A DNA stretch of 11,517 nt from Spirochaetes bacterium RIFOXYC1_FULL_54_7 (GTDB taxonomy: Bacteria; Spirochaetota; Spirochaetia; Treponematales; UBA12059), in assembly GCA_001830645.1 (NCBI GenBank), contig MIBM01000093.1, positions 1 through 11,517 of the forward strand, given 5' to 3'. Below are positions 926 through 11,517 of the stretch, piece after piece (the first letter of the stretch is position 1; the number at the start of each line of letters is the position of its first letter). A program made the translations under genes and the position numbers. Under the pieces are notes generated by a model, which was not told the DNA's origin, ran no database searches, and saw only the letters and a program-made list of their open reading frames with translations.

Positions 926-3900
926 TCATTCAATCCTGCACGCGACAATCCTTCTGCTCTCGTTGTCCCCGAGATAGATAATGTTTGCTGACCACTCCAT
1001 ACAGTCAGTGTCCAGGTTGGAAAGGGTCAGTGAGGCAGTTTCCGAAATGCTGGAGATGTCGGATGCATCAAGAAGGGTAAGTCTGGTATCCGTGCCATTT
1101 CCGGAACGGATCAGGATGAAGTCTCCCTGGACAAGGATTTCATGGGGATCGAAACCGAATCCCATCGAATAGTTGTAGCCGGTTTGTTCGGTCAGGCTGC
1201 CGGTTAGCGGGTTCAGAAAAAACACCCGGATTTCAGACCCGTCAAGGACAAATACAGTATTGTCACTGAGCGCCAGGTCTTGAATACCGGCGTTGGCGGT
1301 AATGGCGCTGCGCAGGGCAGGTTCCTTCCTGTTGCCGAGATCGATTACCGCCACTTCTCCATCACGTGCACTGATGACATAGGTGCCGGCAAGTTCTACT
1401 GCAATGTTTCCGCCCTCCAGAAACACACCCTGTTGTACTGGCGTCGTCGGAGTTGCTATATCGACCATGGTAATCCCGTCGTTTACGTTGGTTCCCAGAA
1501 TGGCTAAGTCTCCCTGCAACCGCATTTTCCAGGCTCTACCGCTGGCTATGATTCCTGTGGACAAAACTTGCGGAGGTGACGTTGCAATATCGATCGTGTC
1601 CGTGGAGGACAACATGACTATGTCGCCGATAAGGCCCATATCGGGCCAGCTGCGGTTCGAGGAAGGCAATTGAATAGTGGCGGTTATAACCGGATTTTCG
1701 GGAGTGGAAATATCCAGGACCTGCAAGGTATCGATGAGCACTTCACTCTCTGAACCAGAAAGTACGAGCATTCGGTCGCCATCAGCCCTTATGACATTGG
1801 TGTCACCAGCTACACCACTCAAAGTCACCGGACCAATTTCATGGATGCTGGAAGGCATGCCGATGTCCAGGATGCAGATACCACCACTATCCAACTGTGC
1901 CAGCCACAAGACACCATTGTCTGCATACAGGTCAGTTGTGTAGCCATCCAGTTCGAAGGTATACAGGTAGGGATCTGTGTCGTTTTCCGCACCGTCAGCA
2001 TCTTCACTGCCATCGAGGATGCTGGCTATATTGAAAGCTTTGTAACCTCCACGGTAGGCATCGGCAATGTACAGTGTGGATCCGTCGATGTGCATGGCCC
2101 CATCGGCATAGATTACGTAGCCGCCGTTTGCCACTTCAAGTGGTGCTGCAGGGTTGGTAACCTGGTATGCCCGCATGCCGATTTCGTTGTCACGCATAAA
2201 GAGGTAATCGCCGCTCATGACCATATGTTCGGGACCCATGTTGTTGTTCGCATGCAACAGGCTGGTATCCGTAAGTAAAACGCTATCTGGGTCACTCACA
2301 TCTGCTATCATGAGTCTGCATTTCCAGTTCGTGGTACTCTCATCGTAGAACCTGTGGGCGATGAATAGATGATTATCCTGCGCATACAGTCCCATAGGCT
2401 CACTGGCAAAGGATCCGAGCAGAATGGGTGATGCAGGGTTGTTAATGTCATAGATGTAAATGGCTCCTGGTTCTTCTCTCATGTCATCCGCAGCTGCCAC
2501 AAAGAGTATTGTTCCGGTTGATGACATCCCATAGATACTCCGGTTAATATGCCAGTCCGGGAGAGCAAAAGTGGCCACAGCTGTTCTTGTATCAAGGTCT
2601 GCAACGACAACCGTTGCATAGCCGGATCTGAATCCATATGCATATGATCCGGCTTTGTGGAATCGTGCTCCAAAGGACGTGATGTATTCGCCAGTGCTGA
2701 TTGGTGACAGGGGGTCATCCAGATCAAAGAACCGCAGACTATTGATGTTGTCACTGGCAATCAAGAGTTCTCCATGCCTTTCAATAGTGTTCAATGTGTA
2801 GGAACCTACAGTATTTGCTACCACTGGCTGTTTGGAGAAGTATGGCGGCCTGAAAGCTGTGGATTCCACACTCTGGTTGAGGCTCGAGGAGCCATTGTTG
2901 CGGAGTGTCAGTCGATACCGGTAGTAATTGGACTTTATTACATCGGTGTCGCTGTAGGTGGATGCGGTGGTTACAGTCAGGGCTTCCCAGTTGCCGTCGT
3001 TCACCTGGCGTTCCAGCAGGTAGCGTGCTCCTGCGGTGAGGGATGGATACCACTCGATTTCTATTCTCCCATATCCACTGTTCACTGCCCAGGGTCTGAA
3101 GGTCAGAGGTGACATGGGTGCCAGTACCAGATCAGCTGAAACGGCCGTCTCGTAACCTGGTACGGTAGCGCTTAGCTGGAACTCGTGGAAGGTTCCGTTG
3201 GTTAGGCCCGTCCATGTATAGATCCCGTCTTCTTCCAGGTTGATGTTGTCTCTGATGCCGCCGAAGACGAATTCTTCCATCCGGTAGCTGGTGGCTTCGG
3301 GTACGGGGTCCCAGGTAAAGGTGATACTACTGTTCTGCACCTCGGTGTTTATATTGATTGAGCCTCCTCCAGCGGGTTTCAGGAGGTTTACACGGATAAG
3401 GCTTTCATTGCCATTCTTGTCCGAGGCAGTGAGCTCAAGCACAACATTGGTTGACAACTGGCTTGAATCAATTTGTGTCCATAAATTATCACCTTCAGCA
3501 TCCTCATCGACAACAAGTGTTCCTCCGATGATGGTGCCTGGTATGCGGTAAGAGACAGAAGCCAGCTCAACTTCACCGAGTCCGGTGTCCCCTGGGCCAT
3601 TCTGGACTCTGCCGGATAACTTGATGCAGGTGGCGTAATAGCCGTCTACTGGGCTTGTCAGGGTCAAGTGCGGCCCAACACCGTCATTTCTCAGTGTAAG
3701 GGACCGGGACGATGCATGACCGTGGATGTCTATGGCTATCAAGGTGACCACGATGTCAGTCTTGATGCCACTGGTATCGCAGTGGAAATCAAAAACTCCG
3801 CTTGCAGCATCGAACAGTACAGCCGTTGTCTGGAGAGCGTATGTAGTCGAATAAGCCAGGCTTACAACCTCGTCCAGGCCAGTATCATCTTCACTGTTGG

Positions 3901-4717
3901 CAACACTCCCGGTAACGGTTATACCTGATTCGAAAACTGAATAATCGGCCGGACTGGCAATCCGGATTGCCGGGCCGACAAGGTCGCTGGTGAGTTGCCG
4001 GATGATGCTTGTCGAGTCTCCCTGTTTGTCGGTTGCGGTAATCCTGATGAGGATGTTGCCGGATAGGTTAGTGGAATCGAACTGGAAGGAATATTCACCC
4101 GTTTCGGGATCAAAGACTTCGGAGAGGTCTCCAGTGATGATGGTATTGAGTACCTCGTATTCCACAGCTGCCACATTGGTAGGAACCGAGCCATCGCTGT
4201 TTCTGACCGAGCCCTCCACTACAACGGTCTTACCGATGACAGTTCGATCTATGGGAGAATCCACCGTGACCACCGGTCCACTGGAATCATACAATAGTCG
4301 TCTGGTAATCGAGGTTTGGTTACGGTTCAGATCCATTGCAGTAAGTACAAGGGAAATATTCCCGTTGTAACTATCAGTTGGTATGCTCAGGGTAAAACTG
4401 CCGTCGGACTCCACGGTTATCGTTCCTGATTCTTCTTCGCCTGGTATGGACCAGCCTAGTGCTGGAATGGCAGCGCGGTCTTCCAGGGGGCGTACCAGTC
4501 CCTGGGCATCCAGATCAAGCGCAATGCCGGAGATGGTCAGGCTGTCCTGAAATAGTGCGCCTTCCACCGGTTCATCCAGAATGAGCTGTGGGCTCTGGCT
4601 GTCTTCCAGTATATCCAGATCCGATAACTTGAACGGCGATGGACAGGTGCTGAACAGGATGACAACCAGTATAAGCCCTGGCATGGTTGCAGATAGTCTA
4701 CGTTGTTTCCTGAACAT
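926..4717 (-). CDS. Large surface lipoprotein: Ig-like repeats, FN3 domains, LVIVD beta-propeller
   Basis: A 1263-residue exported protein. The N-terminus has basic residues (RKQRR), a hydrophobic stretch (13-22) and LFSTC ending at C25. This would be a poor classical lipobox but fits the looser form used by spirochaetes, so membrane anchoring is probable, not certain. Four Ig-like repeats follow (about 45-145, 147-245, 248-345, 349-447), the last three opening with a GP...SP element. Two fibronectin III-like domains come next (about 450-535 and 537-625). The rest (630-1263) is about 13 propeller blades of the type LYIAD...DI..P..P, matching the LVIVD repeat family, enough for two propellers. 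No catalytic site is seen; adhesion or protein binding is the likely role, by inference. GAGGA (4724-4728) lies 6 bases before the ATG and inside the upstream gene's end. The 2-base gap after that gene implies co-translation. No terminator is visible before trpB. Confidence 0.85.
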   Translation of the reverse strand: MFRKQRRLSATMPGLILVVILFSTCPSPFKLSDLDILEDSQSPQLILDEPVEGALFQDSLTISGIALDLDAQGLVRPLEDRAAIPALGWSIPGEEESGTITVESDGSFTLSIPTDSYNGNISLVLTAMDLNRNQTSITRRLLYDSSGPVVTVDSPIDRTVIGKTVVVEGSVRNSDGSVPTNVAAVEYEVLNTIITGDLSEVFDPETGEYSFQFDSTNLSGNILIRITATDKQGDSTSIIRQLTSDLVGPAIRIASPADYSVFESGITVTGSVANSEDDTGLDEVVSLAYSTTYALQTTAVLFDAASGVFDFHCDTSGIKTDIVVTLIAIDIHGHASSRSLTLRNDGVGPHLTLTSPVDGYYATCIKLSGRVQNGPGDTGLGEVELASVSYRIPGTIIGGTLVVDEDAEGDNLWTQIDSSQLSTNVVLELTASDKNGNESLIRVNLLKPAGGGSININTEVQNSSITFTWDPVPEATSYRMEEFVFGGIRDNINLEEDGIYTWTGLTNGTFHEFQLSATVPGYETAVSADLVLAPMSPLTFRPWAVNSGYGRIEIEWYPSLTAGARYLLERQVNDGNWEALTVTTASTYSDTDVIKSNYYRYRLTLRNNGSSSLNQSVESTAFRPPYFSKQPVVANTVGSYTLNTIERHGELLIASDNINSLRFFDLDDPLSPISTGEYITSFGARFHKAGSYAYGFRSGYATVVVADLDTRTAVATFALPDWHINRSIYGMSSTGTILFVAAADDMREEPGAIYIYDINNPASPILLGSFASEPMGLYAQDNHLFIAHRFYDESTTNWKCRLMIADVSDPDSVLLTDTSLLHANNNMGPEHMVMSGDYLFMRDNEIGMRAYQVTNPAAPLEVANGGYVIYADGAMHIDGSTLYIADAYRGGYKAFNIASILDGSEDADGAENDTDPYLYTFELDGYTTDLYADNGVLWLAQLDSGGICILDIGMPSSIHEIGPVTLSGVAGDTNVIRADGDRMLVLSGSESEVLIDTLQVLDISTPENPVITATIQLPSSNRSWPDMGLIGDIVMLSSTDTIDIATSPPQVLSTGIIASGRAWKMRLQGDLAILGTNVNDGITMVDIATPTTPVQQGVFLEGGNIAVELAGTYVISARDGEVAVIDLGNRKEPALRSAITANAGIQDLALSDNTVFVLDGSEIRVFFLNPLTGSLTEQTGYNYSMGFGFDPHEILVQGDFILIRSGNGTDTRLTLLDASDISSISETASLTLSNLDTDCMEWSANIIYLGDNESRRIVACRIE

Positions 4718-4719
4718 AT

Positions 4720-6969
4720 TCAGTCCTCGAAAAAAAGGATCGACTGGGCAGCGGAAGCGTCGCTGGCCCTTGCCGAGCTGTCCTCCGCTGTACCAGCAAG
4801 GAAGCTGTATTGCCGTGCTTCTTCCGGATTGATGCGTTCAGCCGATGACAGGAAATCCCGGGCTTCGGAATAGTTCTCCAGTGCATAATAGGTCCGGCTC
4901 AGGTTGAGCAGCACCGTGAACCTGGTGGATTTTTTGGTGTCATCTGTGTTGTCCATCATTTCCAGGGTGCGCAGGAATGCGTCCCGGGCGGCCTGGTATT
5001 TTTTATCAAGGAAGTAGGTGGAGCCAAGGTTCAACTTTGCATTGAAGTCCTTGGGATCAAGTGCCTGGGCTTGCTCGAAACCACGTATCGCCTCCTGGGT
5101 AAAACCGTATTTTGCGGCAGTGATGCCATACTTGTTCCAGTAGCGGGCACTGTTTCTGGTTTCTGCTTCCTTGAGGGCTGTCTGGAGGGTTGCCCTTGAC
5201 AGACTGGCAAGATCCTGTCTGAACCGGCTTACCATTGCATCCTTGTCACCGTATTGCAGCCCCAGATCGGTTTCACGCAGGGCTACGGGCCTGAAGATCC
5301 GGTGGGCTTCACTGGTTATGTAAAAGCCGCGCGAGGCTGGCTTGGATTCATATTCCCTGTATTGCCCGATGCCTGTTGACCAGGCTTCCTCGAAACTGCC
5401 CTTGCCTATAAGGGTTATCTCGACAAGTACCCAGATTTCGCCGTCAATCTCCACCAGCATGTTACGGTCAGGGTGTACACTTGCAAATGACCTGGACGGA
5501 ATGCCGGTATTGACGGCGCTGTAGATGTGCCCTGGCACGGTAACGAAGGCGGTGGCTATGCCGGACGATTCCAGGATCGTGTTGTACAGGACTGTCAGAT
5601 CATCACAGTCTCCAGTCAGACGGACAAGAGTCTCCCGGGGGAAACTGATGGAGTCAACCGAAACTGCATTCTCCTGTACCATGGTAAAAGGGGAGGTGGG
5701 ATCGATCTGGTAGAGTATGCCCAGTTCTGCCAGGGCATTGTAGGCCTGCATGGCGAACTGCAGCTTGTCGCTTATATAGGGGTTCTTCACCTCCCGGTGA
5801 CTGAGCAGGATGAAACTGGCATAGTTGCGTACTGAACCGTCGGCGGGTGTGATGAAGGCGGCTACCTTCCTGTCGTCGCTCCAGGTAAGCGCATTGCGGT
5901 CATACAGCTCATAGGACAGGGATCTACGTTGCTCTGCGCTGCGTCCCCGGGCTGTGTACGATACGATCAATTCCCCGTTCAGGGGTGTAACGCCCTGGGT
6001 GGAGAACACCGCTTCGCTGAACGTCGCCTTCAGGTCTATGCCCTGCCTCTCTCCCTTTGCCAACCGCTCGAAATGGGCCAGGGTAGTAGGAGAATCCATG
6101 AAACCTTCCTGGAAAAACTCCACCACTACATCTTCAACTTCAAATTTTTCTACATTCTCTATTTCGAAGCTTGTGATGGGTTGCTGGGCATAGTAACTAC
6201 GCATGGCAGCGAATACCGGCGGCATTGAGATGTCGCCGAAGCGCAGTGCGCGGATGGCGGCGCTTGCCCTGTCCGGATCCTGGCCAAAGCGGTAGGCGGC
6301 CTGCAGGCCAAGGCCATAGGAGAAGCCGTCATAGCTGTCCAGTGGCCCAAGGCCCAGGAGATACCGGACGGATGGCTTGACGGCGATGCTGAAGTTGTAC
6401 GAAGGGTTGATGGAGAAGGAACCTGCACTGCCACTTACCAGGTTGAGCTGACCATAGTCGTCCGATGCATCCAGGATGGCCGACTCCAACCTGGTGAATA
6501 GGGATTGGGAGGCACCTGCAAACAGATCAAAGCCAAGCTCGAAATCCCGTGAGAATCGATGGGAAATCCCGAACCCGAGAGCGCCATAGACATGGCGATG
6601 GGTCCAGTCAAGCCCGGTATAATCAGGTTCCATCAGGAAACTGAAATCCAGGACTCCCGCTTTGATGAAAGGCTGGAACACAGGATGGCCAGGCAGAGGT
6701 AACCGGATCTCCCCGGTTACCTCGTTTATCTGGAAGTCAAGCAGCCGGGAATTACCTATGCCGGAGAGAGGTTGGTATGCAGCTGCAATAGCCAACGGAT
6801 ACCGGTAGTACTGGTTCAGATCCATATCCTGGGATGTGCATGGTAGCGGTGTGGTCAGCAGAAGGATGAAGCAATAGAGGCAGGAACGGTTACCGGGATG
6901 GATTCCGGAATGAATAATGTATTGGCTGACGAAATAGCTGAATCGTGCTGGTAATCCTGATCGTCCCAT
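4720..6969 (-). CDS. Exported transglutaminase-like protein with C-terminal TPR repeats
   Basis: A 749-residue protein. A hydrophobic segment (30-43, LYCFILLLTTPLP) preceded by a basic stretch acts as signal peptide or anchor. Residues 60-230 are rich in aromatic and glycine alternations (for example YGALGFGISHRF and YGLGLQAAYRFG), which suggests outer-membrane beta-strands, though this is tentative. A transglutaminase/protease-like core spans about 400-560: the nucleophile is in LTGDCDDLTVLYN (C455), the histidine in VPGH (H481), and the acidic partner probably E517 in WVLVEITLIG. TPR helices follow at about 608-720 (YGFTQEAIRGFEQAQALDP; YYALENYSEARDFL). The ATG at 6969 is chosen over the one at 7020 because AGAGG (6976-6980) lies 6 bases upstream and the longer form adds a cysteine-rich tail without its own RBS. 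It is the first gene of an operon with the lipoprotein. The substrate is unknown; peptide cleavage or crosslinking at the envelope is inferred. Confidence 0.82.
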   Translation of the reverse strand: MGRSGLPARFSYFVSQYIIHSGIHPGNRSCLYCFILLLTTPLPCTSQDMDLNQYYRYPLAIAAAYQPLSGIGNSRLLDFQINEVTGEIRLPLPGHPVFQPFIKAGVLDFSFLMEPDYTGLDWTHRHVYGALGFGISHRFSRDFELGFDLFAGASQSLFTRLESAILDASDDYGQLNLVSGSAGSFSINPSYNFSIAVKPSVRYLLGLGPLDSYDGFSYGLGLQAAYRFGQDPDRASAAIRALRFGDISMPPVFAAMRSYYAQQPITSFEIENVEKFEVEDVVVEFFQEGFMDSPTTLAHFERLAKGERQGIDLKATFSEAVFSTQGVTPLNGELIVSYTARGRSAEQRRSLSYELYDRNALTWSDDRKVAAFITPADGSVRNYASFILLSHREVKNPYISDKLQFAMQAYNALAELGILYQIDPTSPFTMVQENAVSVDSISFPRETLVRLTGDCDDLTVLYNTILESSGIATAFVTVPGHIYSAVNTGIPSRSFASVHPDRNMLVEIDGEIWVLVEITLIGKGSFEEAWSTGIGQYREYESKPASRGFYITSEAHRIFRPVALRETDLGLQYGDKDAMVSRFRQDLASLSRATLQTALKEAETRNSARYWNKYGITAAKYGFTQEAIRGFEQAQALDPKDFNAKLNLGSTYFLDKKYQAARDAFLRTLEMMDNTDDTKKSTRFTVLLNLSRTYYALENYSEARDFLSSAERINPEEARQYSFLAGTAEDSSARASDASAAQSILFFED

Positions 6970-7031
6970 CTCACACCTCTGAAATCTGCAGCGGAATAGC
7001 AGATGCATGAAGTAAAGCACAACAACAGGAA

Positions 7032-8926: not shown

Positions 8927-8973
8927 GAAAGTCCGCTGGGTCATCCTAGTAAAGATGGCCCATGCGGACTTTC
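8927..8973. terminator. Bidirectional terminator hairpin overlapping the ribA 3' end
   Basis: Arms GAAAGTCCGC (8927-8936) and GCGGACTTTC (8964-8973) are perfect 10-bp complements. Inside, TGGGTCATC (8937-8945) pairs with GATGGCCCA (8954-8962) with one T-G wobble; T8963 is bulged and 8 bases form the loop. On the plus strand TTTGTT follows. On the minus strand the stem itself ends in CTTTC. It closes the hydrolase transcript (stop at 8925) and probably the ribA transcript. Confidence 0.8.
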
Positions 8974-9518
8974 TTTGTTATCAGGTAACGGGAATTGTGG
9001 ACGTTCGGCTCGATGACTATGGGTATGCGCCTGCTGATTAGTATGCCTGCGTCGGAGAGTGCGGTCATTTTGGCAGGGTTGTTGGTCATCAGGGCTATCG
9101 ACCCTATGCCGAGCAGGTGAAGCATGGCAGCTGCAGCCTGGTATTCCCGTGCCTCTGCCGGCAAGCCCAGGTCTTCATTGGCTTCCACAGTGTCCCTGCC
9201 CTGATCTTGTAGATTGTAGGCCTGTATCTTGTTGAGCAGGCCTATGCCCCGGACTTCCTGGCGCATGTACAGTACAGCCCCGGCATCCCGGGAGCCGATG
9301 TATGACAAGGCTGCCTCCAACTGGTCGCGGCAGTCACACCGGAGGCTGCCAAAGATATCGCCGGTATGGCATTCGCTGTGTACGCGTACGGGTATGTCAT
9401 GCAGCCCATCCACACAACCACGCACAATGGCCGTGTGTTCCAGGCCGCCCCGGCTGTCGTGGAAGCCATAAATGGAAAAATCCCCGAAACGGGTAGGCAG
9501 TTTTGCCCGGGAGATCAT
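8946..9518 (-). CDS. ribA: GTP cyclohydrolase II, stand-alone
   Basis: Opens the imidazole ring of GTP, releasing formate and pyrophosphate and giving 2,5-diamino-6-ribosylamino-pyrimidinone 5'-phosphate, the first riboflavin intermediate. The 190-residue length is full for a monofunctional enzyme; there is no DHBP synthase (RibB) domain. RVHSECHTGD...SLRCDC carries the three zinc cysteines (C50, C61, C63). QEVRGIGLLNKI (87-98), DTVEANEDLG (109-118), TNNPAK (145-150) and the C-terminal KMGHL-like VRMGHLY match the family. V89 replaces the usual glycine of QEGRGIG. The ATG at 9518 starts the conserved RAKLPTRFGDF but lacks a Shine-Dalgarno site; its first bases overlap the stop of a small upstream ORF, so translational coupling is likely. 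It is divergent from the reductase-dehydrogenase fusion, and with it probably forms a pathway beyond ordinary riboflavin synthesis. Confidence 0.93.
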   Translation of the reverse strand: MISRAKLPTRFGDFSIYGFHDSRGGLEHTAIVRGCVDGLHDIPVRVHSECHTGDIFGSLRCDCRDQLEAALSYIGSRDAGAVLYMRQEVRGIGLLNKIQAYNLQDQGRDTVEANEDLGLPAEAREYQAAAAMLHLLGIGSIALMTNNPAKMTALSDAGILISRRIPIVIEPNVHNSRYLITKKVRMGHLY

Positions 9519-9634
9519 GGAGATGCGCCAGCTGCAGCCGTCTTCGGACTTATAGTCCCGGTAATATGTTCAGGATCATCAGGGAAACGGGAAGCCTTCA
9601 TCATGGCCACCGTAGCTTGTACTGCTGAATCCAC
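9515..9634 (-). CDS. Small ORF coupled to ribA (39 residues)
   Basis: A GTG at 9634 has AAAAAGGA upstream (AAGGA core at 9642-9646, 7 bases away) and opens a 39-codon frame whose TGA (9515-9517) overlaps the ribA ATG (9516-9518) as ATGA. The predicted peptide contains MMKASRFPDDPEHI and ends TISPKTAAAGASP. I recognise no family. It is the only good ribosome site ahead of ribA, which itself has none. Either it is a leader peptide whose translation delivers ribosomes to ribA, or it is a former N-terminal extension of RibA put out of frame; the ribA frame is open back to a TGA at 9570-9572. Real translation is plausible, function unknown. Confidence 0.4.
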   Translation of the reverse strand: MDSAVQATVAMMKASRFPDDPEHITGTISPKTAAAGASP

Positions 9635-9706
9635 TGTTGCTTCCTTTTTAGACGACCCTTGCCCATGCTACTGGTCCACGACTCGAAAACACGTATATAA
9701 AAATAA

Positions 9707-9721
9707 AGTATTGAGAATACT
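9707..9721. promoter_or_regulatory. Perfect 6-3-6 palindrome, candidate operator
   Basis: AGTATT (9707-9712), GAG, AATACT (9716-9721) are exact inverted arms in the spacer between the two divergent genes. It overlaps the -10 and spacer of the ribA-side promoter and abuts the plus-strand candidate promoter, where a regulator could control both directions. No known regulator motif is recognised. Confidence 0.45.
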
Positions 9722-9749
9722 GGTCAAGGTCAAAGTGAAGATTTATCCT
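9721..9749 (+). promoter_or_regulatory. Weak candidate promoter of the reductase-dehydrogenase fusion gene
   Basis: TGGTCA (9721-9726), 17 bp, TATCCT (9744-9749), four of six matches in each box. It would start transcription at about 9756, so the ATG at 9757 would be at or near the mRNA 5' end. The absence of any Shine-Dalgarno sequence before that ATG agrees with a leaderless message, but the match is weak. Confidence 0.25.
9722..9733. repeat. Tandem hexamer GGTCAA x 2
   Basis: GGTCAA at 9722-9727 and 9728-9733, directly next to the palindrome. Read on the minus strand it gives two consecutive TTGACC, each a possible -35 element; it may instead be a direct-repeat protein site. Confidence 0.5.
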
Positions 9750-9756
9750 ATTGATC

Positions 9757-11517
9757 ATGTCCAAACGTCCATTTGTGCTGGCAAGTTTTGCCCAGACCCT
9801 TGATGGTGCCCTGAGCACCGCCGATTCAAAGCCCTTTGCCATCTCCGGCCCTCTGTCAAAACTCCTGACCCACGCCCTGCGCGGCAGGCTGGCTGCCATA
9901 CTGGTGGGAATAGGAACGGTACTTGCCGATGATCCGGTGCTGAACTGCCGGGTCGCCGAACTTGCCGGAAACTTGAAGGGGTCTGGCAACCCATCCGGTG
10001 TCCCTTCATACCGGCAACCCCACCGGATAGTCCTGGACCCCCGGCTTGAACTGCCTGAGCAAGCCCGCATACTGGAAGGGCTTGACCTGGCACCGCTGAC
10101 AATCTTCTACAACCCAGGCTTGGTCAGCCAGGCCAATTCTGGCTCTGCCCGGGCAAGTGATGCTCAGACAGACAAAGTCAAACGGCTTGCGGCCAGAGGC
10201 GTTGAACTCAGATCAATGGCAGGACAGCAGGCAGACTGGAACGAGATTCTGGACTATTTACAAGAATCAGGCCTTGGCAGCCTGTTCATAGAAGGCGGGA
10301 AAAAGGTTCTGGCTTCGGTGCTGGAAGGTGGCTTTGCCGATGCCCTTATCGTGACCCTGGCTCCGCTAATCCAGGGTGGGTCGGCCAGCTGGTACCCCAG
10401 GGAAGCTCCCAGGGGTTTTACCCTTGCGTCGATCCTGTGTGCCGGGGATGACCTGGTTGCAGAGTATGCTCCCGCTAATCCCGCAATCCAGGGCAACCCT
10501 GGCAACCCGGACCAGCTGTCCGGCGGGCGCTTGGCCACCGAACCACCAAAAGCACCCTACCGCAGCCTGGCCTTGCTGGCTGCCGAACTCGGCATCCCTG
10601 GTCTGGAACCGCTTGCACCTATTGCCGGAGCCTCCCGGCTTTTTATTACCCGACAACCGGTACTTGCTGCCGGAATCGTCGAAAGCCCTGCTCTGTCCCC
10701 AGGTGTCCCGGGTGCCCAGTCTATGGATGCGGGACAACCGGAGGTTCGGCCAGGTACCCTGACCCCGGAATGCAGGCAGCTTGTGTTTACCGCGCCTGGC
10801 AAGGCAGGTCTGCGGAACCTGCGTCTGGAGCGGGCGCCGGATGAGTTGCTTGTGGAGTCCCGGCTGATGGGCATAAGCGCGGGGACAGAGCTGGCTGTTT
10901 TCCGCGGAGAATGCAGGGATTTCTCGGGAGAGAGCCTGCCCGGGCTACAGCCTGCAGGCTATCCCCTGGCTTATGGCTATATCAACGTCGGTCAGGCTCC
11001 GGACGGGAGCCGGGTGTTTGGTTTTGTCGCCCATCAGGACAGGTTCTGCTCCAGGGCAAGCGATTTGATCCAGCTTGGCAGTCTTTCCTGGGATGACGCG
11101 GTCTTCCTGCCGTCCATGGAGACGGCTCTAGGGATTGTACACGATGCCCATCCCCGGCTTGGGGACAGGTACTGCGTGGCCGGGCAGGGAATTGTGGGCT
11201 TGCTGGTGACCCGCATACTCGTCTCCATGGGTGTCGGGGTGCTGAGCCTGGAGACCAGCGAATTCCGGCGCCGGATAAGCCGGGAAGCCGGAGCTCTGTC
11301 CCTTGATCCTGTCGATCCTGGGCTGTCTGCCGACATAGCAAGGCTGACCAGCGGACATGGGTGGGACTGCGCCATCAACTGCAGTGGCAGCGAGGCTGCT
11401 TTGCAGCTCCTCATCGACCTTGCTCCACAGGATTCCACCATCGTGGAGTCATCCTGGTACGCAGACCGTAGGGTGTCCCTTGGTCTTGGCCAGGCCTTTC
11501 ACCGCAAGCGCCTACGC
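9757..11517 (+). CDS. RibD C-terminal reductase domain fused to an MDR dehydrogenase domain (partial)
   Basis: Open for 587 codons from the ATG at 9757 to the right edge; the C-terminus is cut. Residues 1-238 are a RibD_C (HTP reductase, DHFR-like) domain: SFAQTLDGALS (10-20), GIGTVLADDPVLNCR (51-65) and FIEGGKKVLASVLEGG (177-192) with LAPLIQGG (201-208). It reduces the ribosyl chain of a pyrimidine intermediate with NADPH. The RibD deaminase domain is absent. After a low-complexity linker (about 239-338) comes a medium-chain dehydrogenase/reductase domain: substrate fold with GISAGTELAVFRG (372-384), MET-A-L (454-458) and a cofactor loop GQGIVG (476-481). The usual catalytic zinc ligands (CGTD) are replaced by SAGTE, so zinc-free catalysis is inferred. 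GSEAA and SSWYAD (566-570) fit a subfamily of uncharacterised alcohol-dehydrogenase-like proteins. No Shine-Dalgarno precedes the start. Higher GC than the spacer. Pathway role is inferred from divergent ribA. Confidence 0.85.
   Translation, partial: MSKRPFVLASFAQTLDGALSTADSKPFAISGPLSKLLTHALRGRLAAILVGIGTVLADDPVLNCRVAELAGNLKGSGNPSGVPSYRQPHRIVLDPRLELPEQARILEGLDLAPLTIFYNPGLVSQANSGSARASDAQTDKVKRLAARGVELRSMAGQQADWNEILDYLQESGLGSLFIEGGKKVLASVLEGGFADALIVTLAPLIQGGSASWYPREAPRGFTLASILCAGDDLVAEYAPANPAIQGNPGNPDQLSGGRLATEPPKAPYRSLALLAAELGIPGLEPLAPIAGASRLFITRQPVLAAGIVESPALSPGVPGAQSMDAGQPEVRPGTLTPECRQLVFTAPGKAGLRNLRLERAPDELLVESRLMGISAGTELAVFRGECRDFSGESLPGLQPAGYPLAYGYINVGQAPDGSRVFGFVAHQDRFCSRASDLIQLGSLSWDDAVFLPSMETALGIVHDAHPRLGDRYCVAGQGIVGLLVTRILVSMGVGVLSLETSEFRRRISREAGALSLDPVDPGLSADIARLTSGHGWDCAINCSGSEAALQLLIDLAPQDSTIVESSWYADRRVSLGLGQAFHRKRLR

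Follow-up and report, generated by a model that had tools for sequence, protein, structure and literature searches.

Two divergent genes at the end of the contig

We analysed contig C93 (MIBM01000093.1) of Spirochaetes bacterium RIFOXYC1_FULL_54_7, whose entire 11,517 bp are the window studied here, in an assembly of 3.43 Mb that consists of 444 contigs and is 72.6% complete. Near its right end, a gene for RibA, a stand-alone GTP cyclohydrolase II (GCH II), and a gene that fuses a RibD_C reductase domain to a medium-chain dehydrogenase/reductase (MDR) domain diverge from each other, and they may encode the opening enzymes of a GTP-derived pathway separate from riboflavin synthesis. The features are:

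8946 to 9518, minus strand: RibA, stand-alone GTP cyclohydrolase II of 190 amino acids (aa), Tyr-type (PF00925, residues, tree)
9519 to 9756, no strand: divergent spacer of 238 bp, with no flavin mononucleotide (FMN) riboswitch and one weak sigma-70-like site
9757 to 10434, plus strand: RibD_C (pyrimidine reductase) domain of the fusion (PF01872, no deaminase, Ser for the RibD Lys)
10435 to 10755, plus strand: linker of about 105 aa between the fusion domains, boundaries approximate (no Pfam match, start of the MDR alignment)
10756 to 11517, plus strand: non-zinc, BchC-like MDR domain, cut by the contig end (alignment A1, PF00107)

The original prediction, a reading of the sequence alone, had listed a monofunctional RibA, the 238-bp spacer, a RibD_C domain without deaminase and an added dehydrogenase domain, and Pfam searches and reading of the open reading frames (ORFs) confirmed this layout. 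The window RibA matched PF00925 (E=3.4e-61) without a DHBP synthase domain and scored 219.4 bits against TIGR00505, above the cut-off of 205.85 for GTP cyclohydrolase II. Alignment showed that Cys54, Cys65, Cys67 and Arg128 of Escherichia coli RibA, which we take to be the zinc ligands and a catalytic residue, respectively, are all kept, and that a Tyr stands at the position of E. coli Tyr105.

The ORF of the fusion is open from an ATG at 9757 (with a TTG at 9751) to the last base of the contig. Its C-terminus is missing because the contig stops at 11517 inside the MDR domain, and most relatives extend about 70-80 residues beyond this point. The RibD_C domain (PF01872) was found at residues 5-226 (E=5e-30); Pfam showed no deaminase domain in the fusion, where this match starts four residues into the ORF, and the protein is not a bifunctional RibD. 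The MDR part matched PF00107 at residues 480-564 (E=1.5e-7), with 31.9 bits against a cut-off of 31.8. The joining of the two domains suggests that the reductase and the dehydrogenase act on consecutive steps.

The MDR cluster and its PTPS-like protein in relatives

The right edge of the window is the end of the contig, and neighbours of the fusion were therefore sought in relatives. The fusion was searched against 296 genomes of the phylum (presumably Spirochaetota), an E value at or below 1e-30 being taken as a strong match to the MDR half, and strong matches were found in four genomes besides its own (G064, G128, G311 and G231). In all four, the MDR is immediately preceded by RibD_C and followed by a gene for a 6-pyruvoyl-tetrahydropterin synthase-like (PTPS-like) protein. 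On the single contig of G231, a RibD_C-MDR fusion of 603 aa, the only one among our loci besides that of the window, is followed by the PTPS-like gene, a glycosyltransferase (GT4) gene on the opposite strand and ribA. The RibA of this cluster is the sister of the window RibA in our tree (support 98/95, 62% identity), while G064 and G311 each have a single GCH II, located away from the cluster. In the two same-phylum clusters without GT4, a protein of 462-465 aa comes after the PTPS-like gene (L087:11242-12639 and L088:12168-13556); the two copies are alike by eye, that of L088 has no Pfam match, and the protein is perhaps a membrane partner.

A tblastn search of plasmids matched 161 records, from which we examined 24 of the 50 listed rows together with three of 24 records with a PTPS-like protein. 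These 27 plasmid loci, the window and the four same-phylum loci made up a table of 32 loci, in which many of the rhizobial rows are closely related and do not count as independent, and profiles were built from the members of these loci. An MDR was found in 30/32 loci, and these 30 MDR loci also held a PTPS-like gene (26, the window with its contig end being one of the other four), a methyltransferase (21), a clear GT4 (20, plus three weak matches), RibD_C (17), a CDP-alcohol phosphatidyltransferase homologue (14), a GTP-ring-opening enzyme (14, of which 11 are GCH II and three GCH III) and a creatininase (three). One small gene separates the MDR and PTPS-like genes at L098. The 26 PTPS-bearing loci come from the same phylum, Rhizobiaceae, Methylosinus, Rhodobacterales, Thiodictyon, Streptomyces, Microbacterium, Arthrobacter and Halobacteria. 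The PTPS-like neighbour that the original prediction had named for such MDRs is thus real, all four same-phylum relatives included, and other genomes do have the conserved neighbourhood on which its reading depended. Its suggestion of such a gene just past the right edge was borne out in relatives, whereas the own assembly shows a contig end and no PTPS; its glycosyltransferase and methyltransferase neighbours were found overall, the latter in none of the four same-phylum clusters.

The MDRs of the PTPS-bearing loci scored 69-168 bits against the window MDR, compared with 65.0 for that of L106, which has no PTPS, and 55.8 for the next MDR (L051); by these scores the window MDR belongs to the non-zinc MDR family of the PTPS cluster. 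The usual zinc ligands are gone in 16/16 rows of alignment A1 (Ser for Cys, YGY for GHE), and these proteins do not classify as zinc alcohol dehydrogenases. Of the NCBIfam MDR models, that of BchC (bacteriochlorophyllide dehydrogenase), which oxidises a secondary alcohol, scored best with L092 (58.9 bits, over residues 17-321 of 333), L089 (50.1 bits) and the window (45.9 bits), yet all lie far under the TIGR01202 cut-off of 291 bits, and the window MDR is not a BchC.

The residues of the PTPS-like proteins were compared with those of a canonical control, which has every residue tested. All 28 proteins retain the pterin-anchoring Glu and two zinc His; none has the catalytic Cys or the catalytic His, and the catalytic Asp remains in two (L087 and L094). 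Covariation links the third zinc His to the residue in the position of the Cys: 11 proteins, from the same phylum and haloarchaea, keep the His and have Glu (subtype 1), and 17, from proteobacteria and actinomycetes, have Ala at both places (subtype 2). This pattern suggests that the family has zinc-bearing and zinc-free forms. Glu in place of Cys is found in PTPS-III enzymes, which cleave the pterin side chain, and subtype 1, that of the kin of the window, may still be a catalyst. A role in queuosine synthesis (QueD) was dropped, the catalytic Cys and His being absent, and a phage origin was not supported, the L089 protein having no match in a phage collection.

GCH II and GCH III are unrelated enzymes that both open the imidazole ring of GTP. 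At three haloarchaeal loci the genes for GCH III and the MDR overlap (Pfam on L090: PF05165, E=1.7e-87), and this association of an unrelated enzyme with the MDR points to ring-opened GTP as the entry to the pathway. The two kinds of GCH II also differ in their neighbours. Met occupies the Tyr105 position in both GCH II with a creatininase nearby (L093 and L140) and in 0/9 without one, and none of the nine Tyr-type GCH II, window included, has a creatininase; the stretch of L091 holds a creatininase but no GCH. Tyr-type GCH II presumably removes the formyl group, which GCH III and a Streptomyces Met-type GCH II presumably leave in place. If so, the pairing of Met-type GCH II with creatininase is as expected for a formyl group left to a deformylase, and the window RibA, being Tyr-type, should yield the diamino product directly.

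A Gfo/Idh/MocA-aldo/keto reductase fusion lies near the haloarchaeal cluster of L091 (7017-8987), and Gfo/Idh/MocA genes are also located near L096 and L146, a hint of a modified sugar.

Predicted reduction without deamination, and the riboflavin genes

Bifunctional RibDs carry a Lys five residues before the xDG motif, and this residue accompanies substrates that are already deaminated. The Lys was present in 29/29 bifunctional RibDs of our alignment, in 0/17 cluster reductases (Ser, Thr, Gln or His; Ser in the window) and in 0/5 paired or lone reductases (Ser, Thr or Ala). This alignment had 51 rows, fragment L119 being left out and ORFs with identical ends counted once, and 15 of the 29 bifunctional RibDs, from Brucella, Ochrobactrum and Rhizobiales, nearly duplicate one another. 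Among solved chains, the Lys is found in the bacterial RibDs 2b3z, 2hxv and 7lrh, while 4ha7 and 9l1f, which we take to be fungal, have Thr and 2azn, 6p8c and 5xv0, presumably archaeal, have Asn. The absence of the Lys from the cluster reductases therefore supports reduction without deamination, as the original prediction had proposed, with retention of the 2-amino group of guanine. The non-deaminated diaminopyrimidine is the substrate of fungal Rib7 and of archaeal ArfC-type reductases, and the window motif SFAQTLDG is similar to TYAQSLD of 4ha7 and 9l1f; the window reductase is instead fused to an MDR, belongs to a PTPS cluster in relatives and stands outside the riboflavin set.

Infernal scans showed that FMN riboswitches precede the riboflavin genes at 4/4 operons (L045, L050, L138 of the own contig C90 and L139 of G231) and are found at 0/13 cluster loci (the window, four same-phylum and eight plasmid loci). 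By this measure, and as far as C93 extends, the window genes do not belong to the riboflavin regulon. In G231 a complete riboflavin set (ribD with deaminase, ribE, ribB, ribA and ribH) lies elsewhere, and the RibA and RibD_C of its cluster are therefore extra copies. In the genome of the window, C90 (L138:10016-12141) carries an FMN riboswitch ahead of an operon of ribE, ribB and ribH that has neither ribD nor ribA; a second RibA is encoded on C296, and C93, which ends at 11517 on its right side, has no other rib gene by ORF list and Pfam.

That the C90 operon has neither RibD nor RibA, and that the fusion holds the only RibD_C found in the assembly, would fit an ordinary riboflavin pathway that has been split up, in which the window RibA and RibD_C feed RibE, RibB and RibH of C90, the deaminase is encoded elsewhere and the MDR tail plays an accessory part. 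We regard this explanation as quite unlikely, as the riboswitch is on the C90 operon and not at the window genes, another RibA is present, the Lys of bifunctional RibDs is missing from the fusion, G231 has its own complete riboflavin set beside the same fusion and a sister RibA, and a ribD is likely enough to be missing from an assembly that is 72.6% complete. As more than a quarter of the genome is missing, the fusion could still share a role in riboflavin synthesis. A separate riboflavin set, which the original prediction had asked about, is complete in G231 and partial in the own genome, and of the arrangement that would have spoken for riboflavin (a sole RibA and a sole RibD reductase next to the rib operon) we found the sole RibD_C, and neither the sole RibA nor, on C93, the adjacent operon. 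The idea of a dedicated pathway of RibA, RibD_C and MDR distinct from riboflavin synthesis was supported by the riboswitch, the Lys and the separate set of G231.

At L043, L044, L046 and L048 (in the related genomes G016, G013, G007 and G025, respectively), a lone RibD_C is adjoined by a second and longer type of GCH II, whose N-terminal extension contains Cys. These four genomes gave no RibE match, and the loci have no FMN riboswitch and no RibD Lys, which looks like another non-riboflavin use of both enzymes. The RibA of C296 (L060:1188-1892) is a long RibA of this clade, differs from the window RibA and has no RibD_C seen beside it.

As to the remainder of the window, the sigma-70-like site of the spacer is weak and on the minus strand (9727-9700), and the number of promoter-like sites in 9400-9900 was not significant (one, against a shuffled mean of 0.4). 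A TPR protein (4720-7020) and a large LVIVD/Ig-like protein (926-4717) are encoded in tandem on the minus strand and are unrelated to RibA and the fusion.

A proposed pathway and its relation to known systems

We propose that RibA and the fusion carry out the first steps of a dedicated pathway, other than that of riboflavin, from GTP to a pterin-like, perhaps sugar-bearing molecule, a reading to which we give a probability slightly better than even (about 0.55). First, from its family and residues, RibA is predicted to open GTP to 2,5-diamino-6-(5-phosphoribosylamino)pyrimidin-4-one, formate and pyrophosphate. Second, RibD_C with NADPH is predicted, from its family and specificity residue, to reduce the ribosyl C1' to the ribitylamino form with no prior deamination. 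Third, the fused MDR would oxidise the C2' hydroxyl of the ribityl chain, the presumed site of attack; condensation of the resulting ketone with the 5-amino group would then form the second ring and yield 7,8-dihydroneopterin 3'-phosphate. Fourth, to judge from the neighbours in relatives and not from this contig, the PTPS-fold protein would handle the pterin, and GT4, in many clusters with a methyltransferase, would complete a pterin conjugate. Reduction at C1' and oxidation at C2' together equal the Amadori shift of GTP cyclohydrolase I, so that there would be no net redox change. A fold that binds the 2-amino-4-oxo ring and a reductase that does not need deamination point to a pterin rather than a lumazine or a flavin. 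The pathway would range over the same phylum, Alpha- and Gammaproteobacteria, Actinomycetota and Halobacteria.

The full form of this proposal is more tentative, and we consider it possible without favouring it: a route to 7,8-dihydroneopterin 3'-phosphate free of GTP cyclohydrolase I, with the Amadori shift made as two redox steps, a PTPS-fold protein of new function, a conjugate in bacteria and haloarchaea, and three interchangeable openings of GTP (Tyr-type GCH II, Met-type GCH II with creatininase, and GCH III).

The same cluster could also work without ring closure, its product being a reduced diaminopyrimidine ribitol phosphate that carries a sugar and a methyl group and that the CDP-alcohol phosphatidyltransferase perhaps attaches to a lipid. 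The homologue of this enzyme in 14/30 MDR loci agrees with such a product, the PTPS-like protein without its classical Cys and His may only bind the 2-amino-4-oxo ring, and the MDR could act on a different hydroxyl. We hold this alternative to be unlikely, since a pterin-binding fold in 26/30 loci is more directly explained by a pterin and the phosphatidyltransferase was found in 0/4 same-phylum clusters. Dihydroneopterin phosphate would also enter folate synthesis, as it does in Chlamydia by way of RibA and TrpF, and the cluster might then be a second, redundant source of the pterins of folate or biopterin. This is very improbable: the own genome and G231 have GCHY-1/FolE2, G128 and G311 have FolE (only a FolE fragment was found in G064), and the GT4 and methyltransferase neighbours in other clusters indicate a modified end product. 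A role in folate supply was dropped on the strength of the FolE2 and FolE genes.

Several observations weigh against the proposed pterin pathway. The PTPS gene was not seen in the own assembly (0/1), so that its link to the window rests on relatives, and the plasmid regions were hand-picked. L090, L106 and L141 hold an MDR without PTPS for no apparent reason, and the Streptomyces plasmids L147 and L148 hold a PTPS-like gene without MDR. Within the phylum, RibA lies beside the cluster in only 2/5 cases (the window and G231), and G128, contrary to expectation, has RibD_C, MDR and PTPS, yet no GCH II match genome-wide. GT4 is present in two of the four relatives (G064 and G231, not G128 or G311), and the methyltransferase in none. 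As to the proteins, the Gly of the EGR motif is Val in the window RibA and is kept in the other 15 of 16 rows, the tree does not group the window RibD_C, a long branch, with the other cluster reductases, and the sole RibD_C of the assembly might also serve riboflavin. The loss of the zinc ligands from the MDR makes plain alcohol oxidation less certain, and the MDR of L086 scores higher with threonine dehydrogenase than with BchC.

MEKHLA, cupin and MBL-fold genes lie next to or close to the PTPS-like genes of L147 and L148, possibly a second context of the family.

Comparison with known systems showed that the cluster is, at least in part, a known orphan. Its PTPS-like family matches Streptomyces coelicolor SCO6650 (3d7j) at E=2.5e-50, and the Streptomyces plasmids L093 and L140 hold MDR, PTPS-like, GT4, methyltransferase, GCH II and creatininase genes. 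Unlike the window and G231, these clusters have no RibD_C-MDR fusion, and their GCH II is Met-type with a creatininase, whereas the window RibA is Tyr-type and no creatininase was found in the window; the GCH II of S. coelicolor presumably leaves the formyl group. Of the original prediction of an undescribed pathway, the dedicated non-riboflavin route of RibA, RibD_C and MDR was supported, and the word undescribed was only half apt: a structure of the PTPS-like family, 3d7j, has been solved and is entitled "Uncharacterized protein SCO6650". We know of no product assigned to the cluster. Riboflavin RibA and RibD share their enzyme families, and probably their first intermediate, with the window, which differs in lacking the deaminase, the FMN riboswitch and the RibD Lys and, in relatives, in its neighbours. 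In Chlamydia, RibA and TrpF turn the GCH II product into dihydroneopterin monophosphate by Amadori isomerisation; the same conversion is proposed here as a reduction followed by an oxidation.

The presence of RibA and RibD_C genes does not imply riboflavin synthesis. The genes of the cluster are currently named by default after queuosine and riboflavin enzymes. If the proposal is true, it would assign to a cluster of bacteria and haloarchaea its substrate, the sequence of its steps and a product that can be tested for, and would add a new synthesis of the pterin ring built from enzymes of vitamin B2.

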